64,000 bases of DNA, from the IMG/VR virus record IMGVR_UViG_3300023174_000050, positions 1-64,000 of that record. The stretch is one strand, 5' to 3'. Each line of letters opens with the position of its first letter. Position 1 is the first letter of the stretch. Positions 13,920-54,908 of this stretch are shown piece after piece. This DNA comes from a virus. A program made the translations under genes and the position numbers. The notes under the pieces are model-generated. The model was not told the DNA's origin. It was given only the letters and a program-made list of their open reading frames with translations, and searched no databases.

Positions 13920-13927
13920 GAAATAAT

Positions 13928-16840: not shown

Positions 16841-16848
16841 AAACTAAT

Positions 16849-17493
16849 ATGAAAACAATTGCTTTATTTGAAGATGATCGCAGCAAATCTGCAATATCAT
16901 GCGGTGATGGCATAGTCGAAGCATTATCACCATATTTTAATATCAAAATCTTTAGAAAACATCAATGTGTTGCAGAGACATTTGATGGTGTAGATTTACT
17001 AGCATTTCCTGGAGGTGTGGGCGATGCAGACGATTATTTTCATATGTTTCCAAGAAAGAATGCCAACGCCGTAGCAAATTTTGTTGCCGCTGGTGGTGCA
17101 TATCTTGGCATCTGTGTTGGTGCATACTGGGCTGGGCCAGCATACTTTGATATCTTAAAAGGCGCCGAACCGGTTCAATATATAAAACGACCAACTGCTG
17201 ATATTATGCGTAGTTGTAATATTGCTGCAGAATGCGTGTGGAATGGTGAAGAAGAAAGAATATTTTTTCGAGATGGATGTACTTTTGTAGGTGATCTCAG
17301 CCATTCAGAAATTGTCAGTACATATTTCAATAAAGAACCCATGTGCATTAGGCAAGGTAAAATTGGCGTAATGGGTGCCTGTTTAGATTCGCAAGAGTGG
17401 TGGTATGATAATAAAACGATCAAACAATACTGGCACAAAGGCAGACATCATACTTTGTTACTTGATTTTGTTAATGACTTAATGAAACGGTAA
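16849..17493 (+). CDS. Class I glutamine amidotransferase-like protein (BPL_N type)
   Basis: The product has 214 residues with the flavodoxin-like GATase1 fold. The pattern DLLAFPGGVGDADDYF precedes the nucleophile elbow YLGICVGAYWAG, where Cys is the likely nucleophile (about residue 89). The layout matches the domain found at the N-terminus of some eukaryotic biotin-protein ligases and in stand-alone bacterial proteins of unclear substrate. A His-rich C-terminus (GRHHTLLLDF) may supply the catalytic His. It is an enzyme-like gene inside a block of tail adhesins; function unknown. Confidence 0.8.
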   Translation: MKTIALFEDDRSKSAISCGDGIVEALSPYFNIKIFRKHQCVAETFDGVDLLAFPGGVGDADDYFHMFPRKNANAVANFVAAGGAYLGICVGAYWAGPAYFDILKGAEPVQYIKRPTADIMRSCNIAAECVWNGEEERIFFRDGCTFVGDLSHSEIVSTYFNKEPMCIRQGKIGVMGACLDSQEWWYDNKTIKQYWHKGRHHTLLLDFVNDLMKR

Positions 17494-17501
17494 TATAAAT
17501 A
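17494..17501 (+). promoter_or_regulatory. T4-type late promoter TATAAATA
   Basis: The exact TATAAATA octamer overlaps the stop of the amidotransferase-like gene, 22 bases before the adhesin start at 17523. In T4-like phages this element is read by gp55-programmed RNA polymerase. Confidence 0.7.
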
Positions 17502-17522
17502 TACAAATAACTAGGAAAAAAT

Positions 17523-18509: not shown

Positions 18510-19258
18510 ACATAACCGGATTAAAAATTAGAAATGGTGTAAAGATACAAAAAGGTATTGCGCCATTGCCCACACTACGAGGCAGTTTAAGTTTTAACGG
18601 CTCTAATCAATATTTGAGTTTAAATCCGGGTTTAACTATGAGCGCTGGAGCTTTTACAATAGAAGGCTGGTTTTATAATAATAGCGATTTTACTTCCAGG
18701 GGATGGTTAGGTACTACCAATGAATATGGTATGCATCTATTTACAACTGACGATTATAATATCATGTTAGATGTATCTGGCGGACATGGCACAATAACTT
18801 ATACTTGGTCTCCTGGAACATTACAAACAAACACATGGCAATATATTATTTTAAACCGCAACCCCAATGGTTTAGAAACAATGTATGTGGGCACATTGGG
18901 TAGTCCAGGTGCACCTGTTACATGCTATCGTGCATCATTTGCAGCAGGCAATTTTGATCCTACTAGTTTTCCTGCAGGAACTTGTATAGATTCGTATGAT
19001 TGGTATGGTTCATCTGATCAAGTGGGTAAATACTATGGTGGATATTTTCCCGGTTACATAACTAATTTTAGAGTTACTATAGGTGAAGCACGATATGATA
19101 CGAATGATGGTACTGTGTTAGCACCAAGTTCAGAATTGACAAGTGATGTTTATACGCAATACTTAATGTTGGGCGATGCTGTTACTACAGATGCAGCAGG
19201 TATACAAACTGTTACTAATAACAACGGTGTAACTGCGGTTGTATCTAAACCATTCTAA
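18506..19258 (+). CDS. LamG/concanavalin-like domain virion protein
   Basis: The product has 250 residues. After a short N-terminal segment, residues ~28-240 show the LamG/concanavalin A-like lectin pattern: GSLSFNGSNQYLSL, AFTIEGWFY, TNTWQYIILNRN, and FPGYITNFRVTIGEARYD near the end. Such jelly-roll modules bind sugars or proteins and are common in tail fibres. It is coupled to the upstream adhesin by a 4-base overlap and probably adds a glycan-binding function to the tail. Confidence 0.85.
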   Translation: MNITGLKIRNGVKIQKGIAPLPTLRGSLSFNGSNQYLSLNPGLTMSAGAFTIEGWFYNNSDFTSRGWLGTTNEYGMHLFTTDDYNIMLDVSGGHGTITYTWSPGTLQTNTWQYIILNRNPNGLETMYVGTLGSPGAPVTCYRASFAAGNFDPTSFPAGTCIDSYDWYGSSDQVGKYYGGYFPGYITNFRVTIGEARYDTNDGTVLAPSSELTSDVYTQYLMLGDAVTTDAAGIQTVTNNNGVTAVVSKPF

Positions 19259-19261
19259 ATT

Positions 19262-20017
19262 ATGATCTTTGCTATAATTTTATTATTAACAGCGTTGGCA
19301 ATTTCAGGTATAGCAGGTTATTTTTCAATTATAGGATTAGCGCATATATTCTCAGCTAATCCGTTGCCTATTATTGTAATGGGATGCGTGTTGGAAGTAG
19401 GCAAACTGGTAACCGCTTCTTTTGTATACAGACAATGGGACAAAATTAACGTTGTATTAAAAACATATTTTGTTGCGAGTGTGGTCGTACTTTCAATCAT
19501 CACATCCTTAGGTATATTTGGTTACTTATCCAAATCATATACATCGGATTCTGCAGGTATTTACGATAGCGAAACCAAATTAAACACCACACAAAATTTA
19601 ATAGAGATTGAACGTAAAAGATTAGATAATTTACTACAGCAACAGGCAAAAAGAGATGCGCCTAATAAAAGAATAGAATTGGATATTAGAGAATCTCAGA
19701 ACAAAATATCCGAACTGACAAAAGAAATTGGTGTTGTTCAAAAGGATAAAAACAAACAAAATTCAGAAATAGGTCCCATACGATATATTTCCGAATTGGT
19801 ATATCAAAAGAATGATATGGAAACAATTGACAAGGCAGTTCGTTTAATAATAATGTCTTTGATGTTTGTATTTGATCCGTTGGCTATTTTATTAGTTGTT
19901 GCAGCCAATATGCTATTAAAGGCAGAACGGCGCAAACCTAAGGCCAGATTCACACGGAATTCTATAGAAATCGACAAAAGTGCTGTTTTTAACATTAAAA
20001 ACAAAGACATGGATTAA
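19262..20017 (+). CDS. Membrane protein with central coiled coil
   Basis: The product has 251 residues. Hydrophobic segments lie at about 1-23, 34-52, 64-88 and 194-217; between the third and fourth is a long charged coiled coil (~100-160, LNTTQNLIEIERKRLDNLLQ). The tail is basic. Similar proteins occur near tail genes of T4-like aquatic phages and are called conserved membrane proteins. The role is unknown; a part in entry or membrane takeover is possible. Confidence 0.75.
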   Translation: MIFAIILLLTALAISGIAGYFSIIGLAHIFSANPLPIIVMGCVLEVGKLVTASFVYRQWDKINVVLKTYFVASVVVLSIITSLGIFGYLSKSYTSDSAGIYDSETKLNTTQNLIEIERKRLDNLLQQQAKRDAPNKRIELDIRESQNKISELTKEIGVVQKDKNKQNSEIGPIRYISELVYQKNDMETIDKAVRLIIMSLMFVFDPLAILLVVAANMLLKAERRKPKARFTRNSIEIDKSAVFNIKNKDMD

Positions 20018-20025
20018 TATAAATA
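20018..20025 (+). promoter_or_regulatory. T4-type late promoter TATAAATA
   Basis: Exact octamer right after the membrane-protein stop, 20 bases before the small virion gene at 20045. Confidence 0.7.
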
Positions 20026-20044
20026 TATAAAACGAGGAATTTCT

Positions 20045-20203
20045 ATGGCACTTACAAGAATAAAATCATCGGGATTTAGCGCAAACACTGTTGTTGGTCT
20101 AATTGTTGCAGGCAACGGCGTTAATGTTACTTCAAACAATATTACCAATAGTATTGTTATTAGTGTAGATATTTTGCATCCATTTCTAACAATGGGAGTT
20201 TAA
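20045..20203 (+). CDS. Small beta-rich virion-associated peptide
   Basis: The product has 52 residues (MALTRIKSSGFSANTVVGLI...), rich in Val, Ile, Asn and Thr, behind CGAGGA. It is the first gene of a three-gene module (small peptide, 109-residue protein, glycine-rich adhesin) that is repeated at 27846-29287. The function is unknown; conserved order with the adhesin suggests an assembly or attachment role. Confidence 0.65.
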   Translation: MALTRIKSSGFSANTVVGLIVAGNGVNVTSNNITNSIVISVDILHPFLTMGV

Positions 20204-20210
20204 GGAACAA

Positions 20211-20540
20211 ATGGCAACCACTTATAAAATCTTAGGTCAATCTGCACCTATCGCAAACACATATACAGATATGTATGCTGTCCCTGCAGCTACACAAGCA
20301 GTTATATCAACATTAAATGTTTGTAATACAAATGCATCTAATGTGTCATTTAGAGTATTGGCAAGACAAGCCAATGCGGCAATTACATCTAAACAATTTA
20401 TTGCATATGATGTTCCTATTGGTGCACAAGATGCAATAGGATTAACATTAGGCATGACTCTAGGAGCACTTGATGTTATTACAGTACATTCTGTACAAGG
20501 CAATGTGGTATTTAACTTATTTGGTACTGAAATAAGCTAA
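20211..20540 (+). CDS. Small tail-associated protein, paralogue of the one at 27996
   Basis: The product has 109 residues: MATTYKILGQSAPIANTYTD start, then PAATQAVISTLNVCNTNASN, ending VVFNLFGTEIS. It is beta-rich, like capsid or fibre accessory proteins. The gene at 27996 aligns over its full length (YKVLGQALPNPASYADLYLV; NVTFNLFGAEIT). Its last base is the first base of the following adhesin ATG. The role is inferred from the linkage. Confidence 0.75.
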   Translation: MATTYKILGQSAPIANTYTDMYAVPAATQAVISTLNVCNTNASNVSFRVLARQANAAITSKQFIAYDVPIGAQDAIGLTLGMTLGALDVITVHSVQGNVVFNLFGTEIS

Positions 20541-21415
20541 TGGCTATCAAAAGACATAGTGCCAGATCATTACAAAGTAAAAATTTAAATTATAATCTCA
20601 CCATTGTTGCTGGTCCAACAGTATCAAGTATACAATACATACTTGTTGCAGGTGGCGGTGGCGGTGGTGGTAGAGGTGATGTATATGGTGGCGGTGGCGG
20701 TGGTGCTGGCGGATATCTTTCATCAATCGCAGGAGAATCCTCTGGTGGCGGTACATCTGCACAGTCTGCTATCAGTGTAACTTCAGGCGCAGCATTTACA
20801 GTAACTATAGGCGCCGGTGGTAACAGCGGGGGTGGCGGCGAGGAATCCCCTGGTTTTACTGGAGCAAATAGTCTAATCAGCGGACCATCTATATCAACTA
20901 TTACCGCAATAGGAGGCGGTGGCGGTGGAGGCAATAGTATTACCGGTAAAGACGGTGGATCTGGCGGTGGTGGTGGAAATACTTATGGAAACGGGGCTGC
21001 TGGTCAAGGATATAGAGGCGGTTTAGCATCTCCGGGATTAACAGGTGGCGGCGGTGGTGGTGGAGCTGGTGCAGTGGGCGGGCAGGGAGAAGCCGGTGTT
21101 GGGGGAATAGGCGTAAAAACTAATATTTTTGGTCCAGACGTATATCACGCCGGGGGTGGTGGCGGTGCTGGTAATGGTGTACACGGTGCCGGTGGCACTG
21201 GTGGCGGTGGCGGTGGCGGCAATAATGTGCCCGGAAGCGTAAATACTGGCGGTGGTGGTTCCAATTATCTCGGTGTAGGTGGTCCGGGTGTGGCATATAT
21301 AGTTTATCCATCTGCATTTGCAAATTTATCAAACACTGTTGGCAATGTAACATATACTGCCACAAATGGATATAAAATTTACAAATTTAATTCTTCTGGA
21401 AGTTTTACAATTTAA
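20540..21415 (+). CDS. Glycine-rich tail adhesin 6
   Basis: The product has 291 residues. The N-terminal ~30 residues (AIKRHSARSLQSKNLNYNLT) are basic and differ from the MPI-type start of the 13-16 kb paralogues. 'IQYILVAGGGGGGGRGD' then opens the Gly-rich body. The C-terminus is YTATNGYKIYKFNSSGSFTI. It is the third gene of the duplicated module. Confidence 0.86.
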   Translation: MAIKRHSARSLQSKNLNYNLTIVAGPTVSSIQYILVAGGGGGGGRGDVYGGGGGGAGGYLSSIAGESSGGGTSAQSAISVTSGAAFTVTIGAGGNSGGGGEESPGFTGANSLISGPSISTITAIGGGGGGGNSITGKDGGSGGGGGNTYGNGAAGQGYRGGLASPGLTGGGGGGGAGAVGGQGEAGVGGIGVKTNIFGPDVYHAGGGGGAGNGVHGAGGTGGGGGGGNNVPGSVNTGGGGSNYLGVGGPGVAYIVYPSAFANLSNTVGNVTYTATNGYKIYKFNSSGSFTI

Positions 21416-21427
21416 TTTAAGAATAAA

Positions 21428-23230
21428 ATGAAATCCGCAGGTTATAGCTCAAAAACTTTTCGAACTAAAAAATTCAATACATCGAATCTAAATATAGTTG
21501 CGGCAAACGCAAATATAATAGCACCTAGGTTTGTGTTTTATAATCCTCCCGTATCATCTTCGCCCTCGCCTAGTCCGCCTGCATTTTCTTTTGATTATTT
21601 TATTGTTGCTGGAGGTGGCGGTGGGGGTTCTGGGGATTATTCCGGCGGAGGCGGCGCCGGCGGTGTAATTTATTCTGAAAATTATACTGGTACAGCAATA
21701 ACAGGAGCAACATATACTGTTACTGTGGGTAGCGGTGGTTCTTTTTCTCAAAATGGAACAAATTCTAGTATAATTAGTCCGGCAATAAGTTTCGTTGCTG
21801 TAGGTGGCGGCGCTGGCGGATCTTCTTTTGCAATAGGAAATCCCGGTGGTTCTGGTGGCGGCGGTGGTGCATCTACAAGGTATGCTGGTGGCGCAAATAT
21901 TTTAGGGCAAGGGTATGCAGGTGGTACTGGTGGGACAAATGAAATAGGTGGCGGCGGAGGCGGTGCTGGCGGTACAGGTGTACCCGGTACATCTGGAGCA
22001 ACAGGAGGTTCCGGCGTATATTATACAATCACCACATCAAACGTGGTATATGCTGCCGGAGGCGGTGGTGGCGCTGTGGCAACAGGTGTCGGAGGAACAG
22101 GTGGTTCCGGTATAGGTGGATCAGGTTATCGTAATGGAATCGCAGCAACTCCGGGGTTTACCAACACCGGTAGTGGCGGTGGTGGCGGAGGTTATAATAT
22201 GAATGCCTTGGGTGGTCTTGGCGCACCCGGCATAGTTGTAATTAAAACAACTTCTGCAGATTTATCAAGTGTAGGTTCAGTTTCTACCACAGGTGCACCA
22301 AATGTTATAGTATCGGGTGCAAATACAATTTACACATTTAATCAATCAGGCACACTTCAATTTCGATTGCAATTGACTTTACAATATTTACTTGTTGCAG
22401 GTGGCGGCGGTGGCGGCGGGTCATATTATGCTGGAGGTGGCGGCGCCGGAGGTTATATAGCTAATAGTGTTATAATACCAAGTGGAACGTCATATAGCTT
22501 TACCGTTACAATAGGAGCCGGCGGCGGCGGCGGAGGTCCTAGTGCAGCGGGGACAAATGGTACGCCTTCAACTGCTAATATTAACTCCCTGAGCACAGTG
22601 ACTGCTGTGGGTGGCGGCGGTGGTGGTTCAAATAATGGCATTGACTTTATTGGAAAAAATGGTGGTTCAGGGGGCGGTGGAGCAAATCCAACATCATCTC
22701 CCAAGCCCGCCGCACCAGGTGGGACAGGTACAGCTGGACAGGGAAATCCCGGTGCTGCTCCGAACTCAAGAACTGGTCAAGGAAATTCAGTATATGGTGG
22801 CGGCGGTGGTGGCGCTGGTACTGCAGGAAAAACTGGAACACTTCAAGGATATGGTGGAGACGGTAATGCGTGGATTAATGGTACTTATTATGCCGGCGGG
22901 GGTGGAGGTGGCGCAGATTATAATTATTCACCTATTACTCCTAGTCCCGGTGGCTTAGGTGGGGGAGGCAGGAGTGCAGGCGAAAACCCTCCAGGTACAG
23001 TATTCCTTGCTCTTGCTGGTAACGTAAACACAGGTGGTGGTGGTGGTGGTGCTACACACACCGCAGGTGGGGCAACCAATGGAGGATCCGGCGGCTCAGG
23101 TATAGCTATTTTTGCACATCCCACAGCATTTGCAGCAACATCCAATTATACAAATGCAAATGTGATAACAACTGGCGGCACCGTATACTACATATTTACT
23201 GGTCCTGGAACAATAACATTGAGCCAATAG
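21428..23230 (+). CDS. Double glycine-rich tail adhesin (two fused units)
   Basis: The product has 600 residues, twice the normal length. Residues 1-~313 form a complete unit ending TIYTFNQSGTLQFRLQ. At ~316 a second unit begins with LQYLLVAGGGGGGGSYYAGG and runs to a second ending, YYIFTGPGTITLSQ. The second unit closely matches the genes at 14858 and 15802 (blocks like GQGNPGAAPNSRTGQGN and GRSAGENPPGTVF), whereas the first does not. This looks like fusion of two paralogues in frame. Confidence 0.88.
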   Translation: MKSAGYSSKTFRTKKFNTSNLNIVAANANIIAPRFVFYNPPVSSSPSPSPPAFSFDYFIVAGGGGGGSGDYSGGGGAGGVIYSENYTGTAITGATYTVTVGSGGSFSQNGTNSSIISPAISFVAVGGGAGGSSFAIGNPGGSGGGGGASTRYAGGANILGQGYAGGTGGTNEIGGGGGGAGGTGVPGTSGATGGSGVYYTITTSNVVYAAGGGGGAVATGVGGTGGSGIGGSGYRNGIAATPGFTNTGSGGGGGGYNMNALGGLGAPGIVVIKTTSADLSSVGSVSTTGAPNVIVSGANTIYTFNQSGTLQFRLQLTLQYLLVAGGGGGGGSYYAGGGGAGGYIANSVIIPSGTSYSFTVTIGAGGGGGGPSAAGTNGTPSTANINSLSTVTAVGGGGGGSNNGIDFIGKNGGSGGGGANPTSSPKPAAPGGTGTAGQGNPGAAPNSRTGQGNSVYGGGGGGAGTAGKTGTLQGYGGDGNAWINGTYYAGGGGGGADYNYSPITPSPGGLGGGGRSAGENPPGTVFLALAGNVNTGGGGGGATHTAGGATNGGSGGSGIAIFAHPTAFAATSNYTNANVITTGGTVYYIFTGPGTITLSQ

Positions 23231-23247
23231 TATAAAATATTGAATTA

Positions 23248-23255
23248 TATAAATA
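23248..23255 (+). promoter_or_regulatory. T4-type late promoter TATAAATA
   Basis: Exact octamer 24 bases before the virion gene at 23279, in a short AT-rich gap. Confidence 0.7.
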
Positions 23256-23278
23256 TAAGTATAAACTAAAAGAACAAG

Positions 23279-23737
23279 ATGCGTAGAATACAAAGTACAC
23301 AAATAGGCGCGGGCACGGGTGTTATTGATAGCGTATTGGCTATTGATTCCAATACAAATCCTGCGTTTAGATATATTGCACCAAATTATGCGTTAGATGA
23401 TGTATCATATCAGTTTGACGGTACAGCAACAGTATTTGGACTAACACTTGATACTGCGAATATTTCTACGGTGATAAATACTTCAATAGTAGATTCAAAA
23501 GATGTTGATGTGGCGATAAATGGTATGGTTTTAATGCCATATGTGAAACAATTAACCTGGCCTTGGATAACCCCTTACGATTCTTTTAGAGGTTATAGAG
23601 TGGTAGATGATAAAATTATTTTTTATACTGCACCAACGCCGGGAACACAATGTTCTATAATTCTTCGCAACACAAGCAAATCAGCACAACAAAGACGCTA
23701 CCCCTTTACCCCAAATAGCATAGCCCTAGGAGATTAA
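23279..23737 (+). CDS. Virion structural protein
   Basis: The product has 152 residues, beta-rich, with VSYQFDGTATVFGLTLD and a 'NGMVLMPYVKQLTWPWITPYD' segment typical of fibre or baseplate attachment domains in T4-like aquatic phages. It ends just before the 943-residue structural gene, with a late promoter in front. I infer a fibre-base or baseplate-proximal protein. Confidence 0.75.
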   Translation: MRRIQSTQIGAGTGVIDSVLAIDSNTNPAFRYIAPNYALDDVSYQFDGTATVFGLTLDTANISTVINTSIVDSKDVDVAINGMVLMPYVKQLTWPWITPYDSFRGYRVVDDKIIFYTAPTPGTQCSIILRNTSKSAQQRRYPFTPNSIALGD

Positions 23738-23743
23738 ACCAAA

Positions 23744-26575
23744 ATGGCAAAACATGTAATATTAGAAAGTTACACATTCAATCCAACTACCAGAACGGTG
23801 ACGGTGAATGGTAAAAATATCCGCAGAGAACAGTTATTATTGATTACAAACGTAACACGTAATACTGTTATCTATAATTTTAGTGATCCCAATTTAACTG
23901 CCACTTCATATACAAATGCAACCTCTACAATCGGCCCTGGCGGTGGCATATTAGAAACAACTACAATTATATTGAATTATAATACTGCAGCAATGAGCAG
24001 TTCTGATAAGTTAAGTATTCTTGTTGAAGAAACTTATCAGGAATTTATACCTGCAGAAACCTATATGGATCCTGTCGGTAAGATGAGAATGTCTGAGCCA
24101 CAATCATTAATTGATACTGACTTTGAGTATGGTATACAACCAACAAAATGGGAAAGTATTACATTACTCGATAACAGACCAACTGCATTTTACAATGCAC
24201 AGGGTTCAATGACGTTCTCAAATATTACTGGGTCTTATCAGGGAAATACCTCAGTATTAGTTGCTACTGCAGATACTGTTACTCCTAATCTTTATATTGG
24301 TGCTCCTATATTCATACAAGGCTCACAGGATGCAGGTAACGTTGACGGTTGGTGGATTGTTGAAACTCTAGGTAACAACGCATACTTCACATTCAGAACA
24401 ACAGGTATTCCTGCATGGCCATTATATGATAGTACAAAAACAATTATCTATTCTGGTGCATATTATACTGGATCAGCAATCAACGTAAATAACGTATCAG
24501 TTACATCTAACGTTATTACAATTTCAACAACTAACTCTCATGGTTTTGAAATAGGAAATCCTATTTGGATTAATAATACTACCGGTGTTGGTATGTTGAA
24601 CGGTCCTTGGATAGTAGCAACTGTCCCAACAAGTAATTTATTAACAGCAAACGGTTATAACTTTACAGGTGCAGGCCCATTAGTTGCAACTAATTCTCCA
24701 TTTGCATCTAATGTATTATTCGCAAGACCAACAAGTTATGTTCAACACAGAGCATTTGATGGTGGCGTGCAGATGACAAACCAAGGCTCATCTCATGGTT
24801 GGCAAGTTATTAGACAGACCCGCAGATATTTCCGTTACCAATCAGGTAAAGGTATTCAATTTAGTACAGGTTCAATTATAAAACCTGCATTAGCTGTTGA
24901 TACTTTGACATCTGTAGGCACTACAGTTACAGTAAATTGTAGACAAACGCATGGATTGAATCCAGGTGCCAACATTGTTGTTACTGGGGCAAATGAAACT
25001 GCATATAACGGAACATATACAGTTGCTTCAACATTAAATCCATTGACATTTACTTATACTGCAGCAACTTCGCCTACTGCTACTCCTGCAACAGGATTCC
25101 CAATAACTGTTTCACCTTCCGCATGGTATGGATCTAAAACTCGTATCGGAATGTTTGACACTCAAAATGGTTTCTTCTTCGAATTCGATGGTCAAACATT
25201 ATATACTGTTAAGAGATCTAGTACTCAACAAATTGCTGGTTCAGTTACGGTTAATCCTGGTTCACCCATAGTAACAGGTGTTAACACAAGATTTTCTACA
25301 CAACTACTTCCTCAAGATTTTATTGTAATCAGAGGCATGAGCTATATGGTTCAGACTATCATAAGTGATACTCAACTAATAATAGCTCCTGAATATAGAG
25401 GATCTGTTAGCGCAATAAAATGTCTAGTATCTAAAACCATTGATGTTAGATATGCACAATCTTCATGGAACATTGATACTTGCGACGGCAATGGTGCAAG
25501 TTTATTTAATTTAGATTTGACTAAAATGCAAATGTTCTATATCGATTATTCTTGGTATGGTGCAGGTGCTGTTAGATTTGGATTTAAAAATAATAGAGGC
25601 GAGGTAATATATTGCCATCGTATCACCAATAACAATACAAATACTGAAGCGTATATGCGTTCTGGTAATATGTGTGCAAGATATGAAACTAATACGTTGG
25701 CTCCATATTCTAGTTTAACTGCCTCAATATCTAGTGGATCAGGTACAGGATCCACATTTACCGTGGCGGATGCATCAGGATTCCCGCCAGCAGGTACAGT
25801 TATGGTTACTGCTTCAGGTAATCAAAGTGCCGCAATTGAATATATTTCATATTCGGCAAAATCTGCAAACACGTTCACTATTGCAAATAGAGCAGTTTTT
25901 GGTGGTCAAAGTACCGCACAACAATTTACATATTCAGCAACAGCCCCTATTGGAGTAACATTAGCTGCACCGCAGAATGCGGTAACAATATCACATTGGG
26001 GGTCATCTGTTATTATGGATGGTAAATACGACGATGATAAATCGCTGGTATTTAACATTGGACAAAACAATCCATTACAAAATTTACCAAATAATAGCAG
26101 ATACGCAATTATCAGTCTTCGTATTGCTCCGAGCGTTGATAATGGTTTTGTTGGTCAATTAGGCCAAAGAGAAATTGTTAATCGTATGCAATTGATTTTA
26201 CGCCAAATGGATGCTTTAACAACGGCTCCTTACCGTATTGATGTTATATTGAACGGTACACCTACTTCAGGGACTTGGACTAATGTGGGCGGATCAAGTT
26301 TGGCGCAGTATGTCTTGCATGCAAATGCGACTCCAATAGTTGGCGGTGAAAGCATGTTCTCATTCTTTACCAATACTGCTGGACAAACACAACAGGACAT
26401 GACAATTGCAAGAGATCTTGGAACAAGTATTTTAGGTGGCGGAGCAACTACTGCAATCAATACTGCATTGGGCAAATATCCCGATGGACCAGATGTTATT
26501 ACAATTTGTGCAACAGCACTTAGCCCTATAGGTAACATTTTCTCTCGTGTAAGTTGGACTGAAGCACAGGCTTAA
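23744..26575 (+). CDS. Large virion structural protein (tail fibre or baseplate type)
   Basis: The product has 943 residues and is the largest gene in the window. The sequence MSEPQSLIDTDFEYGIQPTK near residue 115 and the following 'WESITLLDNRPTAFYN' mark a family of large virion proteins in T4-like aquatic phages. Internal Thr/Ser/Asn-rich stretches recur with 'SVTSNVITISTTNSHGFEIG' and 'TVTVNCRQTHGLNPGANIVV', suggesting repeated small beta domains. The C-terminal third (IMDGKYDDDKSLVFNIGQNN) is highly conserved in this family. No enzyme motif is visible. Confidence 0.85.
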   Translation: MAKHVILESYTFNPTTRTVTVNGKNIRREQLLLITNVTRNTVIYNFSDPNLTATSYTNATSTIGPGGGILETTTIILNYNTAAMSSSDKLSILVEETYQEFIPAETYMDPVGKMRMSEPQSLIDTDFEYGIQPTKWESITLLDNRPTAFYNAQGSMTFSNITGSYQGNTSVLVATADTVTPNLYIGAPIFIQGSQDAGNVDGWWIVETLGNNAYFTFRTTGIPAWPLYDSTKTIIYSGAYYTGSAINVNNVSVTSNVITISTTNSHGFEIGNPIWINNTTGVGMLNGPWIVATVPTSNLLTANGYNFTGAGPLVATNSPFASNVLFARPTSYVQHRAFDGGVQMTNQGSSHGWQVIRQTRRYFRYQSGKGIQFSTGSIIKPALAVDTLTSVGTTVTVNCRQTHGLNPGANIVVTGANETAYNGTYTVASTLNPLTFTYTAATSPTATPATGFPITVSPSAWYGSKTRIGMFDTQNGFFFEFDGQTLYTVKRSSTQQIAGSVTVNPGSPIVTGVNTRFSTQLLPQDFIVIRGMSYMVQTIISDTQLIIAPEYRGSVSAIKCLVSKTIDVRYAQSSWNIDTCDGNGASLFNLDLTKMQMFYIDYSWYGAGAVRFGFKNNRGEVIYCHRITNNNTNTEAYMRSGNMCARYETNTLAPYSSLTASISSGSGTGSTFTVADASGFPPAGTVMVTASGNQSAAIEYISYSAKSANTFTIANRAVFGGQSTAQQFTYSATAPIGVTLAAPQNAVTISHWGSSVIMDGKYDDDKSLVFNIGQNNPLQNLPNNSRYAIISLRIAPSVDNGFVGQLGQREIVNRMQLILRQMDALTTAPYRIDVILNGTPTSGTWTNVGGSSLAQYVLHANATPIVGGESMFSFFTNTAGQTQQDMTIARDLGTSILGGGATTAINTALGKYPDGPDVITICATALSPIGNIFSRVSWTEAQA

Positions 26576-26578
26576 TCA

Positions 26579-27835
26579 ATGGCACATATAGTATCTACAA
26601 CCCAGCCCCCATCGGGAGCTCTCGGGGATGAATGGTATAATCCCGCAACTAATATTTTATACAAATACTTGGCTTTTGGTGGAACTACACCTTCATGGAT
26701 AGCCAATCCGGGTGTAGTAAAAATTAATTCATTTTCCTATCCGGCAGGTGTAACAAGTTTAAGCACTGCGGGCAATCTGTCTATCACAGTTAATGGATCT
26801 GGATTTAATTCCGGAATACAAATATTTCTAGGTTCAATAAAATGTGCAACAACATTTATAAGCCCTACACAGTTAGTATTTGCAGCTCCGGTAAGTAATG
26901 TAGGCAATTATTTGCTTTATGCTTATAATACCGATGGTAGTTCTGCTGTATTGCCTGCAGGAATAACATATGTAGCTGCCGCCGCGGCATTTTCAATAGA
27001 ATACTTAGTAGTAGCAGGTGGCGGTGCAGGTGGCAACACCGCTGGCGGCGGCGGCGGCGGTGGAGGATTTAGAACTGCTACAACTGTCTCTGTTACTCCC
27101 GGATCTCCTATAGTAATTACAGTTGGAGGTGGCGGAACTACTGCACCCACATTTGGAGCCAACGGAACAGATTCCACCATGACTGGAACAGGAACAAATT
27201 TTGCTAATGTACTTGCATCTGGCGGTGGCGGTGGCGGAACATATTCTGCCACACCCGCAAACAGACACGGTAGATCAGGTGGTTCTGGAGGTGGTGGTGG
27301 CGGTTATGTATCTGCAGGCGATCAAACCATTGGACAGCCAGGCACCGGCAATGCCGGCGGGTACAGTCCGGTAGAAGGATTTGCAGGTGGAACTGGCGCC
27401 ACCTTTGGTGCTGGCGGCGGTGGCGCTGGTGCTGTAGGCGGCAACGGTAGTGCTAGTGCTGCAGGAGCAGGGGGTGCCGGATCACCTTCTTCAATAACAG
27501 GTATAGGTTCTAATGTGTATTATGCTGGCGGTGGTGGTGCGTCCGGTGATAGTTATGGTGGTTCGGATGGTGGTATTGGCGGTGGCGGTCGAGGACAGCC
27601 TTCTGCTGGCGGCGCAACTAATGTAAATGGTACTATAAACACCGGCGGCGGCGGCGGAGGTGGTGGTGGTCAAAGTGGTGCAGGAGGATTTGGTCAAGGT
27701 GGTGCAGGAGTAGTTATTGTACGTCATCCATCTGCATACCCCACTGCAAATACTACAGGATCCAATGTGGTTGTTGCAAGTTCGGGTGGATTTGTTGTAT
27801 ACAAATACTTTAGCTCAGGTACAATAACATTCTAA
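26579..27835 (+). CDS. Glycine-rich tail adhesin 7 with IPT/TIG domain
   Basis: The product has 418 residues. Residues 1-45 are a short fibre-like module (TQPPSGALGDEWYNPATNIL). Residues ~48-138 look like an IPT/TIG immunoglobulin-type domain (LSITVNGSGFNSGIQIFLGS, TQLVFAAPVSNVGNYLLYAY). From ~142, VEYLVVAGGGAGG-type sequence opens the glycine-rich body, which ends FVVYKYFSSGTITF. Its N-terminal domains are not found in the other members. Confidence 0.85.
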   Translation: MAHIVSTTQPPSGALGDEWYNPATNILYKYLAFGGTTPSWIANPGVVKINSFSYPAGVTSLSTAGNLSITVNGSGFNSGIQIFLGSIKCATTFISPTQLVFAAPVSNVGNYLLYAYNTDGSSAVLPAGITYVAAAAAFSIEYLVVAGGGAGGNTAGGGGGGGGFRTATTVSVTPGSPIVITVGGGGTTAPTFGANGTDSTMTGTGTNFANVLASGGGGGGTYSATPANRHGRSGGSGGGGGGYVSAGDQTIGQPGTGNAGGYSPVEGFAGGTGATFGAGGGGAGAVGGNGSASAAGAGGAGSPSSITGIGSNVYYAGGGGASGDSYGGSDGGIGGGGRGQPSAGGATNVNGTINTGGGGGGGGGQSGAGGFGQGGAGVVIVRHPSAYPTANTTGSNVVVASSGGFVVYKYFSSGTITF

Positions 27836-27845
27836 GAATATAAAA

Positions 27846-27986
27846 ATGACAACAAAAATAGTATTATCACAAATAACCGCTCCTGGCACAGTACCTGGAC
27901 AACTTCTATCAACACAACAAAGCGGAAACGTTATTATTGTAGTTGCAAGTGAAGATGTTGACAGTTTTTTGCTTGCGGGAATGTAA
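27846..27986 (+). CDS. Small virion-associated peptide, second module copy
   Basis: The product has 46 residues (MTTKIVLSQITAPGTVPGQL...), hydrophobic and beta-rich. It occupies the same position as the 52-residue gene at 20045, first in the small peptide / 109-residue / adhesin module. Sequence identity to that gene is weak by eye, so homology rests mainly on synteny. A TATAAAAA near-late element lies just before it. Confidence 0.6.
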   Translation: MTTKIVLSQITAPGTVPGQLLSTQQSGNVIIVVASEDVDSFLLAGM

Positions 27987-27995
27987 GGAAAACAA

Positions 27996-28325
27996 ATGGC
28001 AAAAGCATATAAAGTTTTAGGGCAAGCATTACCAAATCCTGCATCATATGCAGATTTATACTTAGTACCTGCAGGAGCAAGTGCAGTTGTATCTACATTA
28101 GCAGTATGTAATACATCTGCGGCGAATGTGACATTTAGAGCAGCTGTTAGAAAAGGCGGAAATGCTTTAACTACTGCACAATTTTTTGCATATGATGTGG
28201 CGCTTCCTGCTCAAGATACAGTAGGATTGACACTTGGTATTACTATGGCATCTGCAGATGTATTAACAGTATATTCATTTGCAGGGAATGTCACATTTAA
28301 CTTATTTGGTGCAGAGATAACCTAA
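27996..28325 (+). CDS. Small tail-associated protein, paralogue of the one at 20211
   Basis: The product has 109 residues, exactly the length of its paralogue at 20211, and they align end to end (YKVLGQALPNPASYADLYLV; QFFAYDVALPAQDTVGLTLG; NLFGAEIT). It shares one base with the next adhesin's ATG, as in the first copy. The module was therefore duplicated as a unit. Confidence 0.75.
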   Translation: MAKAYKVLGQALPNPASYADLYLVPAGASAVVSTLAVCNTSAANVTFRAAVRKGGNALTTAQFFAYDVALPAQDTVGLTLGITMASADVLTVYSFAGNVTFNLFGAEIT

Positions 28326-29287
28326 TGGGAATGTTTCGTTTGACAGAGAAAACAGTCTCTGCAAATAGATTTAATGTTGGATATACAGGAAATGCGATTA
28401 TTTCGCCTTTGAATACCTACGTTGCACCTTCTCCTGCACCATCGGGACCCGCACCAGCACCGCCTGTTATCAAGATAGGATACCTATTAGTAGGCGGTGG
28501 TGGTGGCGGCGGGCAAGCGGGTGGGGATATTGGCGGTGCAGGAGGCGGTGGCGGTGGCGGTGTTGTCCTCGGAAATGTAAATGTACCTGCAGGTACTCCT
28601 ATTAGTTTTGTATGGGGAGGTGGAGGTGCAGGCCAACCATCAAGCAATCCAGGTCCACAGGCGGGCATCACAGGATCGAATACAACCTTAAGCGCACCGG
28701 GAATTACCACAGTAGTTGCACTTGGCGGCGGCGGTGGCGGTTCAGGAACAGGTGCTCCAAGTCCTGCTGCATTGTTAGGTCGTTCAGGGGGATCGGGTGG
28801 CGGAGGATATCCTACGGGAGGAACAGGTGTTCAACCAACATGGAATTCTGGCAATCCTGCAGTTTCTTCACAATATGGAAATGCCGGGGGGTCTAATCCC
28901 GCAGCAGCCTCAGAAGGAACGGGTGGCGGCGGTGCTGGTGGGGCAGGAGTATTAGCTCCGGCACCGGGTGTAAACAGAGCGGGCGGTGCAGCTTTGCCTA
29001 TTGCTGCATTTTCTGTAGATGTTGCGGGAGGGGGAAACACTGCTCCTACTACCTGGAGTGTGACCTCGAGCGGATCACCTGGTTCGTCTGGCGGTTTCGG
29101 AGGGCAAAGTTCTTCTGGTTATCCTGCGTCAGGTACTTCTGGCAATGGCGGTGGCGGATTAATTATATTAATGGTACCAACTTCAAGTTATCCTGGAACT
29201 GCTGTTGGAGCTACAGTAACAACACCCGGGGCAGCCCCAGGAATGACAGTACTAACCTATACTGCAAGTGGAACCTATACCGCATAA
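28325..29287 (+). CDS. Glycine-rich tail adhesin 8
   Basis: The product has 320 residues, Ala/Pro-richer than the others (PAPSGPAPAPPVIKIGYLLV opens the Gly region). The C-terminus (PGMTVLTYTASGTYTA) and the lack of the RHPSAY-type segment mark it as a divergent member. It is the third gene of the second module copy. Confidence 0.84.
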   Translation: MGMFRLTEKTVSANRFNVGYTGNAIISPLNTYVAPSPAPSGPAPAPPVIKIGYLLVGGGGGGGQAGGDIGGAGGGGGGGVVLGNVNVPAGTPISFVWGGGGAGQPSSNPGPQAGITGSNTTLSAPGITTVVALGGGGGGSGTGAPSPAALLGRSGGSGGGGYPTGGTGVQPTWNSGNPAVSSQYGNAGGSNPAAASEGTGGGGAGGAGVLAPAPGVNRAGGAALPIAAFSVDVAGGGNTAPTTWSVTSSGSPGSSGGFGGQSSSGYPASGTSGNGGGGLIILMVPTSSYPGTAVGATVTTPGAAPGMTVLTYTASGTYTA

Positions 29288-29293
29288 ACAATA

Positions 29294-30553
29294 ATGTCCA
29301 TAAAAAGTATAAAATCTAGTAAAACTGCAAAAAATGCAAGATTAAACACTTTTAATCTTCCTACTGTAGTTAGTAATTTGAGTATAATACCCATAGGTAC
29401 AGTATCATTTACGTCTGTACCTACAAGTATAGATGAAGGTTCTATTGCTAACATTAGTATTTTAACTTCGGGGCTTGCCGATTCTAAAATACTATATTGG
29501 ACAGTTAATAATATTTCTACAACCAATGCAGATTTTATAGCATCAAATGGTACAGTAAATGCAATTTTTGGTAGTGGCACTTTTGCAATAACTCCTTCGT
29601 TATATTATTTGGAAGGAACTGAAACATTTAGAATAGATATTAGATCAAGTTCCGTTACTGGTAATATACTGGTAACAAGTAATATTATTTCAATAAATGA
29701 TACAAGTACCATAGATCCTCCAGTAGTTGAATACTTAGTAGTTGCTGGCGGTGGCGGTGGTGGCAATTACGGTGGTGGTGGTGGCGCAGGCGGTGTCAAG
29801 AGAGCTGCTTCATATCCAGTAAATCCATACACACCATATACTATTACTGTAGGCGGTGGTGGCTTGGGAGGATTAGGTTTCCCTGCTATTCAATCTGGTA
29901 CCAATGGCAGTGATTCCCAATTTACACCTGCAATCGTTTCCACGGGGGGTGGTGGCGGCGGAAAATATTTAACTGCAGGCAATCCCGGAGGTTCAGGGGG
30001 TGGCGGTGGTATGGCAACAGCCTCTCCTGGAATTGTTCCCGTCGGCTTAGCGTCGCCAGCTGGACAAGGAAACAACGGTGGTGCTGGCAGATATAATCCT
30101 TCTGCCCAAGTTGGAGGTGGAGGCGGTGGCGCTGGATTCTACGGAGAAGATGGACCAACAGCTGCAGAAGTTCGCGGTGGAGCCGGTGGTTATGGCATTA
30201 TATCCTTTATAAATGGATCAAACCTTTATTATGCTGGCGGTGGCGGTGGTGTTGCTGTATCTGGAGGTGGAGGCGTTCAAAGCGCGGGTGGCGCTGGAGG
30301 CGGCGCTGCAGGTTATACGGGTCCTGGTTCTGGATACGCTGCAAACGGTTTAGTAAATACTGGCGGTGGCGGTGGTGGCGGTGGCGCTGCTGCGTTTGCA
30401 GCATCCACAGGAAATGGTGGGTCGGGTGTAGTTGTCATTAGACATTCAAATGTCTACGCACTTGCAACCACAACAGGTTCACCAAATGTAATATATTCCA
30501 ATGCCAATATTATTTACCAATTTTGGCAATCTGGCACAATTATTTTCAATTAA
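29294..30553 (+). CDS. Glycine-rich tail adhesin 9 with Calx-beta-like domain
   Basis: The product has 419 residues. Residues ~30-140 resemble a Calx-beta/Ig-like domain (VPTSIDEGSIANISILTSGL, GTFAITPSLYYLEGTETFRI, ISINDTSTID). 'VEYLVVAGGGGGGN' follows at ~144, then the Gly-rich body. The ending NVIYSNANIIYQFWQSGTI belongs to the NVIYANANIIYRF subtype. As in the IPT-bearing member, an extra N-terminal domain distances the adhesin tip from the tail. Confidence 0.85.
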   Translation: MSIKSIKSSKTAKNARLNTFNLPTVVSNLSIIPIGTVSFTSVPTSIDEGSIANISILTSGLADSKILYWTVNNISTTNADFIASNGTVNAIFGSGTFAITPSLYYLEGTETFRIDIRSSSVTGNILVTSNIISINDTSTIDPPVVEYLVVAGGGGGGNYGGGGGAGGVKRAASYPVNPYTPYTITVGGGGLGGLGFPAIQSGTNGSDSQFTPAIVSTGGGGGGKYLTAGNPGGSGGGGGMATASPGIVPVGLASPAGQGNNGGAGRYNPSAQVGGGGGGAGFYGEDGPTAAEVRGGAGGYGIISFINGSNLYYAGGGGGVAVSGGGGVQSAGGAGGGAAGYTGPGSGYAANGLVNTGGGGGGGGAAAFAASTGNGGSGVVVIRHSNVYALATTTGSPNVIYSNANIIYQFWQSGTIIFN

Positions 30554-41075: not shown

Positions 41076-41266
41076 TGGCAAATAAAAGAGTAAAAATAGA
41101 ACTATATGCAGAAGCACCTTATATGCAGGGTTATGCATCAGGATTGGCAACGGAACAATTCTTTAATCCATATGCTGATGTAGAAAATGCAGAAGCTGAT
41201 GCTGAGGACTATGAGCGAGGTTACGAGAATGCTAAAGACGTAGAGAAAAATGATACTAAATACTGA
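41075..41266 (+). CDS. Small acidic protein
   Basis: The product has 63 residues. 'YMQGYASGLATEQFFNPYAD' and a long acidic helix (VENAEADAEDYERGYENAKD) look like the small 'YxxGY..G' phage proteins that pair with other early genes. It overlaps the next gene by 17 bases. Function unknown. Confidence 0.6.
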   Translation: MANKRVKIELYAEAPYMQGYASGLATEQFFNPYADVENAEADAEDYERGYENAKDVEKNDTKY

Positions 41267-41930
41267 CAAGTATGTAGAACAAAGAATAGTTGAGTCGAGA
41301 AAGCAGGCACAGTACAGCCAACCTCCAGCAAACAGCTGGGATAACATCACAGATTACATTACATATACGCCGAATTGGCTGCATGCCGACGGTAGAATAT
41401 ACGCATCTGCCCCAGGTGAAGAGTATAGAGTAGCAGAAGTCAGCCCATATAATCCGAAGTTTGAGACGCAAATCGAAGCGGGAGTCTGGCCTATAGTAAA
41501 TGCATTGGTAAATAAGGGATATCTAACTTGTGCAAGTTGCGAAGGACACGGCAGAGATTTGGATTGTTTCGTAAGTTTAGTCACACCAACACTCGAATCA
41601 GCAATAGAACTAGTCAATCTACTAAAAATCGACCCTTGGAAAATAACAGTAAAGACTGACAGATCAATCTGGGATTATACATCTGCTCTGAAAACAACTA
41701 AAAATACATTAGGTAGAGACGAATTAAAATTAAAAGTGTTTCCATATTATAATCGAATCTTTCGCCGAAACTACGATGAATACTTCTATATAGATATGCA
41801 TTTGGCCAAGTATAGCGGATATGGTTTTATATGGAATTGGTTTACAAAGACACCGAGCAAGAAATATAAAACGGCAATGGAACAGATGACGGATCATATA
41901 ACGAACAAACTACCGTATTCAATATATTAG
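41250..41930 (+). CDS. Conserved hypothetical protein with CASCEGHG motif
   Basis: The product has 226 residues. The block WPIVNALVNKGYLTCASCEG followed by H/G and a beta-rich region recurs in phages; the Cys pair plus His looks like a potential metal site. The C-terminus is basic and aromatic. The last gene of its operon, overlapping the previous one. No enzymatic family assigned. Confidence 0.7.
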   Translation: MILNTDKYVEQRIVESRKQAQYSQPPANSWDNITDYITYTPNWLHADGRIYASAPGEEYRVAEVSPYNPKFETQIEAGVWPIVNALVNKGYLTCASCEGHGRDLDCFVSLVTPTLESAIELVNLLKIDPWKITVKTDRSIWDYTSALKTTKNTLGRDELKLKVFPYYNRIFRRNYDEYFYIDMHLAKYSGYGFIWNWFTKTPSKKYKTAMEQMTDHITNKLPYSIY

Positions 41931-41953
41931 TTTGTTGCATAATAAATAACTAT

Positions 41954-42814
41954 ATGCAAAAGACATATAGATCGATATTTATAAGCGATGTTCATCTGGG
42001 CACCAAAGATTGCCAGGCTGATAAACTAAATAATTTTCTAAAGCATAATACATGCGACACACTGTATCTGGTGGGCGATATAATAGATGCCTGGAAAATA
42101 CAGCAAAACCGATGGCGTTGGAAACAATCACACACCAACGTAGTACGTAGAATACTGGGACATGCCAAGCGCGGCACTAAAGTAATATTCATTGCAGGAA
42201 ATCACGATGAATTCTTAAGACCAATGATACCGTATGGTTTCAGTTTTGGTCTAATAGAAATACACAATCAAATAGAACATATAGGCGCAGATGGATTACA
42301 CTATCTGGTTGTACATGGAGACATGTTTGATGGCATAACACGACTAGCACCATGGCTATCATTTTTAGGAGATAAAGCCTATGATTTCATTCTTAGTCTC
42401 AATAGCAAACTTGCTTGGATTCGTCACCGTATGGGTTTTGGGTACTTTAGCCTTAGCCGTTTTCTTAAGCACCGAGTCAAAAAAGCAGTAGATTTCATCT
42501 TCAAGTTCGAAGAGAATCTGGCTCAGTATTGTAAAAAGCGTGGCTTTGATGGTGTGATTTGCGGTCACATACATCATGCTGAGATTAAGGAAATCGACGG
42601 TGTGGCATATATGAACGACGGAGACTGGGTAGAGAGTTGTACAGCATTAGTTGAACACCACGATGGTCGTTGGGAAATAGTAACTTGGACAAGGGAGAAT
42701 GACAATGAAGGTAAACAGATTAATCAGGAAAATGTACAAAGCAATACTAAGGGGCGACAAAAACAAAGAACGACGCCTTTGGTTCAAGGCAATGAGAAAG
42801 TCATTAAAGCATAA
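41954..42814 (+). CDS. plcP: PlcP-like metallophosphoesterase (phospholipase C type)
   Basis: The product has 286 residues. The metal-site motifs are complete: ISDVHLGTKD, VGDIIDAWK, GNHDE, VVHGDMFDG and GHIHHAE. This full pattern, including SLSRFLKHRVKKAVDFI and DGDWVESCTALVEH, is the family often labelled UDP-2,3-diacylglucosamine diphosphatase. True LpxH has GNRD rather than GNHD, and in several bacteria family members act as PlcP, which splits phospholipids to diacylglycerol under phosphate limitation. The adjacent GT4 gene supports the PlcP reading. The specificity is inferred. A late-like ATAATAAATA stands just before the ATG. Confidence 0.82.
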   Translation: MQKTYRSIFISDVHLGTKDCQADKLNNFLKHNTCDTLYLVGDIIDAWKIQQNRWRWKQSHTNVVRRILGHAKRGTKVIFIAGNHDEFLRPMIPYGFSFGLIEIHNQIEHIGADGLHYLVVHGDMFDGITRLAPWLSFLGDKAYDFILSLNSKLAWIRHRMGFGYFSLSRFLKHRVKKAVDFIFKFEENLAQYCKKRGFDGVICGHIHHAEIKEIDGVAYMNDGDWVESCTALVEHHDGRWEIVTWTRENDNEGKQINQENVQSNTKGRQKQRTTPLVQGNEKVIKA

Positions 42815-42836
42815 GCATACTGAAGTTATACGATGA
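42705..42836 (+). CDS. Small basic protein overlapping the plcP 3' end
   Basis: The reading frame gives 43 residues, MKVNRLIRKMYKAILRGDKN then KERRLWFKAMRKSLKHKHTE, extremely basic and helical, behind GGGAG. It overlaps the last 110 bases of plcP in another frame, and its TGA overlaps the ATG of the glycosyltransferase, so it would couple the two. The plcP C-terminus here (~36 residues, Gln/Asn/Lys-rich) looks non-conserved, as expected if this second frame is under selection. Confidence 0.55.
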   Translation: MKVNRLIRKMYKAILRGDKNKERRLWFKAMRKSLKHKHTEVIR

Positions 42837-43828
42837 AAACGATTTTAATTATAACCGATAATCTACCGGATCAAATAAATGGCGTTGTCACGACTTACAA
42901 AAACATTGAGATTTGCGCGTCTCGTGACGGTTATAACGTTGTGGTGCTTCATCCCGGGTGGTTCCGCTACTTTAATTGCCCTGGCTACAACGAAGTCAAG
43001 ATTGCCTATCCCCGGCAAATGGGCAAGAAGATTGCGGAGATACGTCCGGATTATATCCACATCGCCACAGAAGGTCCTCTTGGTTTGTGGGCTAGAAAGT
43101 ATCTTTCATTATGTAATTATCGCTACAATACCGCTTATCATACTAAGTTTCCAGAAGGACTTAATAAACTATTTGGAATACCTGAAGCATTTACTTGGCC
43201 TTTAGTACGTTGGTTTCATAAGCATTCCGGCAAGGTCCTGACGACCACAAACACAATGGTAAATGAACTAAGGAACCATGGCTTTGACGGCGAAGTAATA
43301 CCATGGACCCGAGGAGTAGATAGAGATATATTTAACCCGACGCACAGAGTAAACACTATTAGCAAGTATATACTATGCGTATCACGCGTCAGTAAAGAAA
43401 AGAACCTTGAAGACTTTCTAAGTCTTGACTACCCGGGATATCTCAAAGTAATGGTAGGCGACGGCCCCATGCTGGATGCATATAAGAAAAAGTATTCAGA
43501 CGTACACTTTACAGGCTACAAAACGGGTAAAGATCTGGCACAGTATTACGCAAACGCAGAAGTATTTGTATTTCCAAGTAAATGGGAGACTTTTGGAATT
43601 GTAATGATCGAAGCCATGGCCTGCGGAACTCCTGTAGCAGCATATAACGTAACGGGCCCAAAAGACGTAATAGATCAAGGAATAACAGGCTATATGGATA
43701 CTTCATTAAGTACAGCAATAGATAAGTGTTTAAAGTTGGATAGAAACAACGTACATAAAGCAAGCTATAGATGGTCATGGGAAAACGCGTGGCGAATATT
43801 TAAAGATAATCTTATAAGTAAAGTATAA
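42833..43828 (+). CDS. GT4 glycosyltransferase, Agt-like
   Basis: The product has 331 residues with the GT-B fold of family GT4. Visible are an N-terminal acceptor domain (IITDNLPDQINGVVTTYKNI; HIATEGPLGLWARKYL; YHTKFPEGLNKLFG) and the nucleotide-sugar site with the EX7E motif in ETFGIVMIEAMACGTPV. The acceptor half resembles glycolipid-forming enzymes (SqdX/Agt/MgtA class) that glycosylate diacylglycerol. Next to a PlcP-like gene, it would use the diacylglycerol released. Substrates are inferred. A strong terminator follows. Confidence 0.85.
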   Translation: MKTILIITDNLPDQINGVVTTYKNIEICASRDGYNVVVLHPGWFRYFNCPGYNEVKIAYPRQMGKKIAEIRPDYIHIATEGPLGLWARKYLSLCNYRYNTAYHTKFPEGLNKLFGIPEAFTWPLVRWFHKHSGKVLTTTNTMVNELRNHGFDGEVIPWTRGVDRDIFNPTHRVNTISKYILCVSRVSKEKNLEDFLSLDYPGYLKVMVGDGPMLDAYKKKYSDVHFTGYKTGKDLAQYYANAEVFVFPSKWETFGIVMIEAMACGTPVAAYNVTGPKDVIDQGITGYMDTSLSTAIDKCLKLDRNNVHKASYRWSWENAWRIFKDNLISKV

Positions 43829-43851
43829 GGCCTTATTATAGGCCTTTTTTT
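43827..43851 (+). terminator. Strong intrinsic terminator
   Basis: AAGGCCT (43827-43833) pairs with AGGCCTT (43840-43846), 6-base loop, followed by TTTTT. The stem covers the end of the glycosyltransferase gene, closing the plcP-agt unit. Confidence 0.88.
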
Positions 43852-53757: not shown

Positions 53758-54138
53758 ATGAGTATGCATCTTGAGGGTCCTTGGTTATCATCTTTGGGCA
53801 AAAAACGAAAAAAACAAAAGTTTCGTAATGCTGAAGAAGCAAAACGTCATCGAGAATTAACCGCCCAATGGGAAAAAATGGTTAATGACTACGGCACCAA
53901 TAAAACACAAAAAACAAAACAAGAATCTTTACAGTATTCGTTATCCGTCCCTGCAGGTAGGATTACTAATACACATATTAAAAGTTTAGACACGGGTCAT
54001 ACTGGAGCAGTGGCGAGTAAAGCCATTCCTCAATATACAGGAACAAAGATGTTAGGAATTGGCACTATGCACAAATCTAATGCGGTTCCGATATTTACAG
54101 ATGAAGAAGCAAAATCTATTTCAAGCATGAGGCGTTAA
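53758..54138 (+). CDS. Conserved hypothetical protein
   Basis: The product has 126 residues. 'HLEGPWLSSLGKKRKKQKFR' then NAEEAKRHRELTAQWEKM is a very recurrent N-terminus in phage genomes; the C-terminal half has SVPAGRITNTHIKSLDTGHT and a conserved HKSNAVPIFTDEEAKSI. Function unknown. It shares one base with the next gene. Confidence 0.8.
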   Translation: MSMHLEGPWLSSLGKKRKKQKFRNAEEAKRHRELTAQWEKMVNDYGTNKTQKTKQESLQYSLSVPAGRITNTHIKSLDTGHTGAVASKAIPQYTGTKMLGIGTMHKSNAVPIFTDEEAKSISSMRR

Positions 54139-54908
54139 TGAAAGTAGTTATAGTTACAGGCGGGTTCGATCCTTTACATAAAGGACATATCGAGTATTTT
54201 AAAGCAGCCAAACAATTAGGTGATAGACTAGTTATAGGTGTTAATTCTGACGAATGGTTGACTAGAAAAAAAGGCAAACCATTTATGCAATTGGAAGATA
54301 GATTGTCCATATTAGAACAATCTAGTTTAGTTGATAAAGTTATTACTTTTGATGATAGCGATGGATCTGCTAAAGATGCGATACGTGTATCAATGTTACA
54401 TTATCCTATGCCTAATACTAAATTTATTTTCGCAAATGGCGGAGACAGAACACAAGAAAATATTCCAGAAATGGATATAGTGGAACCTAATTTAGAATTT
54501 GTATTTGGTGTCGGTGGCGAAAATAAAATGAATTCTAGTTCTTGGATTCTTCAAGAATGGAAGTCACCTAAAACCGAAAGACAGTGGGGTTACTATAGAG
54601 TTTTGCATGAACAAGGTAAAGAAGTTAAAGTAAAAGAATTAACAGTAGAACCAGGAAAATGTTTAAGTATGCAAAGGCATCAAGATCGAGCAGAACATTG
54701 GTTTGTATCTGAAGGAACCGCAACCGTCTATACTATAGACTCTAGCACAGATATTGATCTACTTGGAGTATATCAAAAATTTGATAGTCTCCATATTAGT
54801 AAAACAGAATGGCATCAGCTTTGCAATGAAACTGACAAGCCATTAAAAATTGTAGAAATACAATATGGTGAAAATTGTGTTGAGGAAGATATTGAAAGGA
54901 AAATTTAA
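54138..54908 (+). CDS. Nucleotidyltransferase fused to a cupin domain
   Basis: The product has 256 residues. Residues 1-~135 are a cytidylyltransferase/RfaE-type domain: VTGGFDPLHKGHIEYF carries the HxGH motif, and ANGGDR and NSSSWIL complete it. Residues ~150-250 form a double-stranded beta-helix of the mannose-6-phosphate isomerase type (CLSMQRHQDRAEHWFVSEGT; WHQLCNETDKPLKIVEIQYG) with the metal His/Glu set. The fusion suggests sugar-phosphate activation. The substrate is unknown. Confidence 0.85.
   Translation: MKVVIVTGGFDPLHKGHIEYFKAAKQLGDRLVIGVNSDEWLTRKKGKPFMQLEDRLSILEQSSLVDKVITFDDSDGSAKDAIRVSMLHYPMPNTKFIFANGGDRTQENIPEMDIVEPNLEFVFGVGGENKMNSSSWILQEWKSPKTERQWGYYRVLHEQGKEVKVKELTVEPGKCLSMQRHQDRAEHWFVSEGTATVYTIDSSTDIDLLGVYQKFDSLHISKTEWHQLCNETDKPLKIVEIQYGENCVEEDIERKI

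Follow-up and report, generated by a model that had tools for sequence, protein, structure and literature searches.

A putative PlcP-Agt lipid-remodelling gene pair in a T4-like phage

The plcP-agt locus and the phage that carries it

The window, that is, the whole 64,000-nucleotide stretch analysed here, covers positions 1 to 64,000 of IMG/VR record IMGVR_UViG_3300023174_000050, which represents a T4-like phage of 190,131 bp. The gp23 capsid protein of this record is 64% identical to gp23 of Methylophilales phage Melnitz and of Pelagibacter phage HTVC008M, and the closest gp23 relatives thus infect Methylophilales and SAR11. Other genes in the window encode RNR subunits, RNase H, PhoH, Thy1 and a clamp-loader-like protein; a search of its 64 kb for tRNA genes gave none. 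The locus under study has the following features:

41941..41948, plus strand: possible T4-late-type promoter AATAAATA, about 12 nt upstream of where plcP starts (putative)
41954..42814, plus strand: plcP homologue, intact ORF, metallophosphoesterase of 286 aa (Pfam PF00149)
42833..43828, plus strand: agt homologue, intact ORF, GT4 glycosyltransferase of 331 aa with a GT-B fold (PF00534/PF13692/PF13439)
43827..43851, plus strand: intrinsic terminator at the end of the pair; a T run comes after its stem (43827-43846)

Only 18 nt separate the two genes. The preliminary description of this DNA had given the pair a terminator of its own, and this was confirmed as a 7-bp stem (AAGGCCT/AGGCCTT, -10.6 kcal/mol, z = -2.4) with its T run. 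Both plcP and agt are under purifying selection, with a median dN/dS of about 0.07-0.12. The upstream ORF at 41250-41930 has no relatives in other phage loci and was therefore excluded from the operon.

The phosphoesterase groups with PlcP

From the GNHDE motif, in place of the GNRD of LpxH, and from similarity to the PlcP family, the preliminary description had set the phosphoesterase apart from LpxH, and the comparisons of tree, model score and motif made here agree with it. A 99-protein tree places the window PlcP in the bacterial PlcP clade, with phage copies dispersed among the bacterial ones, and LpxH is split off at 100/100 rather than being joined by the phage protein; within this tree the long branches of S-SRM01, L161 and Mosig call for caution. 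Moreover, the window PlcP scores 34.5 bits against the LpxH model, for which the cut-off is 190.35, and its closest bacterial relatives are 48-61% identical to it. Its GNHDE motif occupies residues 82-86, and GNHD[E/D] is found in 153 of 154 phage proteins and GNHEA in the remaining one, as opposed to GNRDF in all nine LpxH proteins extracted. In eight of the bacterial genomes tested, an LpxH above the cut-off was seen together with a second match, of PlcP type and below the cut-off. The predicted metal ligands (D12, H14, D42, N83, H121, H205 and H207) are invariant in an alignment of 28 phage and bacterial rows.

The AF2 model of PlcP (pLDDT 82) has LpxH as its nearest solved fold, and there were no PlcP structures among its best matches to solved structures. 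The calcineurin-like fold is what the window PlcP has in common with LpxH, from which it differs in having GNHD instead of GNRD, in its separate clade and in a score far under the LpxH cut-off. Its neighbour is also of the type associated with phosphorus-free lipids, as the agt homologue lies directly downstream. By motif, model score and clade, 41954-42814 is a PlcP-type phosphoesterase and not LpxH.

One of the long-branched sequences, L161, is filed as a fecal phage; in it the genes after the PlcP homologue are MurG/GT28-like and ppk-like, and it looks like a bacterial fragment, perhaps from Bacteroidetes.

The glycosyltransferase groups with Agt

The second gene had been described beforehand as a GT4 of the glycolipid-forming type, and its phylogeny is in line with this. 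The window GT4 falls in the clade of diacylglycerol glycosyltransferases (Agt) with support of 96/95, its nearest rows being the Agt of SAR11 and SAR86 (96/91), and other GT4s of the same genomes as well as Acinetobacter MgtA lie outside; the contrary outcome, a GT4 clade acting on LPS or capsule with no diacylglycerol pocket, did not occur. The protein is about 36-45% identical to the glycosyltransferases encoded beside bacterial plcP. Its AF2 model (pLDDT 91.9) adopts a GT-B fold that is nearest to BshA and also matches MshA and PimA. A tested member of the Agt clade, GTcp of SAR11, makes MGlc-, MGal- and MGlcA-DAG (PMC8231724).

Three residues needed in SAR11 GTcp, Thr162, Arg163 and Trp320 (PMC8231724), correspond to the predicted diacylglycerol contacts T159, R160 and W316 of the window Agt, a correspondence mapped through one Pelagibacteraceae and one Labrenzia Agt, the GTcp sequence itself being absent. 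The motif WTRGVD, from this contact region, is kept in 95 of 97 phage Agts, and the window protein also has the UDP-sugar motifs SRVSKEKN and FPSKWETFG. Its predicted catalytic dyad is formed by H103 and E252. The His of the GTcp dyad His104-Asp256 is kept, and Asp is replaced by Glu in the window Agt as in all 97 phage proteins examined. In GTcp the D256E change abolished more than 90% of the activity (PMC8231724). However, of about 54 bacterial Agts, 4 have a native Glu at this position, so that the substitution in phages is a question rather than a refutation. Thus, clade and contact residues support the assignment of 42833-43828 to a GT4 of the Agt clade that probably acts on diacylglycerol. 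A departure at the other dyad position was seen in a SAR11 Agt (L223, 4781-5785), in which Cys replaces the catalytic His (YCTKF).

Taken on its fold, the pair could be read quite differently, as an LpxH-like phosphoesterase of lipid A synthesis next to a GT4 working on LPS or capsule, so that the outer membrane and not phospholipid would be remodelled. LpxH is indeed the nearest solved fold, the homologue in phage Mosig is annotated as a UDP-2,3-diacylglucosamine hydrolase, and the phage has other surface-sugar-like genes. We regard this as highly improbable, given the GNHD/GNHE motif of 154/154 phage proteins against GNRD in nine LpxH, the score of 34.5 bits against a 190-bit cut-off, the 100/100 split from LpxH and the separation of the glycosyltransferase from MgtA and the other GT4s tested.

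Pairing of the two genes in bacteria and phages

It had been noted in advance that plcP and agt adjoin in several aquatic bacteria, and the loci examined here agree with this. Of the 80 bacterial PlcP loci nearest to that of the window, 60 contain an agt match, nearly always immediately downstream; among the loci without it, a BtaA-like betaine-lipid gene comes next in two, and several contain a ppk-like gene. Within Pelagibacteraceae, 21 of 53 genomes have an Agt match, at about 44% identity, and plcP is directly upstream in all 20 loci retrieved.

Relatives of each gene are encoded in at least 400 viral stretches. When phage loci were selected by plcP, a glycosyltransferase came next in 72/72 with enough downstream sequence, being Agt (GT4) in 18 and an unrelated GT2 in 54, with both in none. 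When they were selected by agt, plcP was present in 74 of 77, and the remaining three lie close to a contig end. The GT2, of about 239 aa, stands where Agt would otherwise follow plcP in L005, L009, L028, L034 and others; among NCBIfam models it matches TIGR04283 best, though far under the cut-off, and a search of 19 plcP-bearing genomes for its bacterial source, run without a positive control, gave no match. This swap between GT4 and GT2 would offer a natural comparison of how phages choose a glycolipid headgroup. Eleven loci (L085, L088, L104, L110, L119, L126, L140, L142, L153, L154 and L157) have a RimK-like ATP-grasp gene between plcP and the GT4. As to the carriers, a gp23 match was found in 8 of the 30 contigs checked, seven of these eight being only about 36-37% identical, and the other 22 are fragments or belong to other lineages.

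The uniform Asp-to-Glu replacement (97/97 phage Agts), together with the presence of GT2 instead of GT4 in 54/72 plcP-selected loci, could mean that the phage GT4 has drifted from an Agt ancestor, with its Glu and its WETFG, towards another acceptor, leaving PlcP alone to feed host enzymes that use diacylglycerol. The strict pairing with plcP, the purifying selection and the retention of the diacylglycerol-contact residues in nearly all copies (WTRGVD in 95/97) argue against it, and we consider it improbable.

A Pho-box-like repeat upstream of phage plcP

Reading of the regions upstream of phage plcP first revealed a direct repeat with an 11-bp period. In 85 non-redundant upstream regions the pattern TGTMAY-N5-TGTMAY is exact in 36 and matches at 11 or more of 12 positions in 55, against a chance expectation of 0.24 (from 20,000 stretches drawn at random from these contigs), which understates chance somewhat since the pattern was defined after some of the sequences had been viewed; the pstS sites provide an independent check. 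A spacing of 11 predominates, with 36 repeat pairs, and is the only close one that recurs; the next is a spacing of 20 with three. In most cases the end of the box is 11 or 21-22 bp away from a following TAAATA, which is similar to the AATAAATA of the window. Most pstS genes of the same phage contigs are likewise preceded by the box, and among 10 bacterial genomes in which the pstS promoter could be read, 6 have this repeat there. The repeat of 11-bp period thus has the architecture of a Pho box and may bind PhoB, bearing in mind that Pho-box prediction in phages is unreliable without binding tests (PMC10976474).

In 10 phage contigs pstS is found close to plcP, and in Pelagibacter phage Mosig the two are neighbours. 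However, it is above the cut-off in only 2 of 24 large carrier contigs, and is therefore a minority companion and not a constant one. The Pho-like box also precedes a recurring gene of about 217 aa, rich in Ala and Val (MRFEDLAARLVAVEAKLANLTG...) and with no Pfam match, which is found downstream of plcP and the glycosyltransferase in L103, L131, L149, L017, L033, L035, L039, L040 and L059; it is possibly the third gene of a putative phage Pho regulon.

There is no such box at the window's own plcP: near the pair no site matches at 12/12 or 11/12, and the best, at 7/12, is at background level. This copy might therefore suit another role for the same enzymes, in which the membrane surface is changed in charge, fluidity or receptor presentation so as to block superinfection or to aid lysis and release, the saving of phosphate being secondary. 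The putative late-type promoter of the pair would fit such a role, and so would a surface-sugar-like gene cluster of the genome at 129-143 kb; moreover, lipid remodelling has been discussed as a cause of changes in membrane proteins and in properties that matter for phage receptors (PMC9804370). Still, in related phages the pair is found beside pstS and under the box of pstS, which points to phosphate, and we hold the surface role to be possible but rather unlikely. The cluster itself, at 129-143 kb of the record, consists, as far as inspection of the N-terminal sequences by eye can tell, of genes of sugar-nucleotide and transferase-like type, and probably serves surface-sugar synthesis.

Proposed function and relation to known systems

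Phages are rich in phosphorus, and their hosts in lakes and oceans are often poor in it. The known phage answers to low phosphorus are mainly phosphate uptake (pstS) and the salvage of host DNA. The preliminary description suggested that a phage with this pair could free phosphate or alter the host membrane, an idea that gains support from the clades, the pairing, the nearby pstS and the Pho-box-like repeats of related phages. Our preferred reading is that the two genes probably form a phage-borne lipid-remodelling operon that would pass lipid phosphorus to phage nucleotides and keep the bilayer.

We infer the following substrates, products and benefit. PlcP, as a metal-dependent phospholipase C, would split host phosphatidylglycerol or phosphatidylethanolamine into diacylglycerol and a phosphate-bearing head group. 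Agt would then use a UDP-sugar to attach glucose, galactose or glucuronic acid to the diacylglycerol and so make a glycolipid of MGDG/GADG type, so that the bilayer would be retained and the lipid phosphorus would enter the pool for phage nucleotides. Host PhoB seems to turn the operon on in many related phages, through the putative Pho box; in the phage of the window, which lacks the box, its transcription probably comes from a phage promoter or from read-through. Because of the link with pstS, we favour phosphorus, rather than an altered membrane, as the likely gain. More broadly, aquatic T4-like and larger phages may constitute a widespread class with their own Pho regulon (plcP with GT4 or GT2, pstS and the third gene), activated by host PhoB, so that phosphate-starved infected cells would turn phospholipid into glycolipid and its phosphorus into phage DNA; to this wider proposal we give about an even chance.

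The nearest known system is the PlcP-Agt (GTcp) operon that Proteobacteria such as SAR11 and Methylosinus carry (PMC4796936, PMC8231724, PMC9239053), with which the phage pair shares the plcP-agt order, the clades, most active-site motifs and the link to phosphate genes. In contrast with the bacterial operon, the phage pair resides in T4-like and larger phages, has Glu for Asp256 and often has GT2 instead of GT4. Furthermore, the exact TGTMAY-N5-TGTMAY of the phages occurs in none of 80 bacterial plcP upstream regions, being found instead at pstS of related bacteria. Cyanophages P-SSM2 and S-PM2 likewise have genes, pstS among them, apparently tied to the phosphate-starvation regulator of the host, PhoBR (PMC10976474). 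Unlike these, the phage plcP and glycosyltransferase are lipid-remodelling genes, the spelling of the box is another, the phages probably infect heterotrophs, and the link to PhoB is a predicted one.

The open-access literature covers the bacterial PlcP-Agt (PMC4796936, PMC8231724, PMC9239053) and the PhoB-controlled genes of cyanophages (PMC10976474). In the open-access full texts searched, we found no description of a phage PlcP-Agt pair, and its novelty is therefore provisional. What is new here is the Pho-box-like repeat before phage plcP copies. The plcP-like gene of Pelagibacter phage Mosig EXVC030M (QOI69083.1) encodes a PlcP homologue 50% identical to that of the window and adjoins a putative phosphate ABC transporter gene; unlike the window's plcP it has no glycosyltransferase beside it, it is annotated as a putative UDP-2,3-diacylglucosamine hydrolase, and the Mosig genome announcement does not mention it. 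Since this cultured phage carries the plcP half of the pair, the idea is accessible to test. If it is true, the host membrane would be a phosphorus store and thereby a new phosphorus source for viral replication, and viral infection would be linked to environmental glycolipid pools.

Other genes of the phage

Two further observations concern the rest of the record. At 54138-54908 of the window, a cytidylyltransferase-like domain is fused to the C-terminal domain of a mannose-6-phosphate isomerase. A series of paralogous glycine-rich genes (LLVAGGGGGGG) extends over 13008-30553 of the window and recurs at 159148-161896 of the record; some of them match phrog_2295, and the series is possibly tail-associated.
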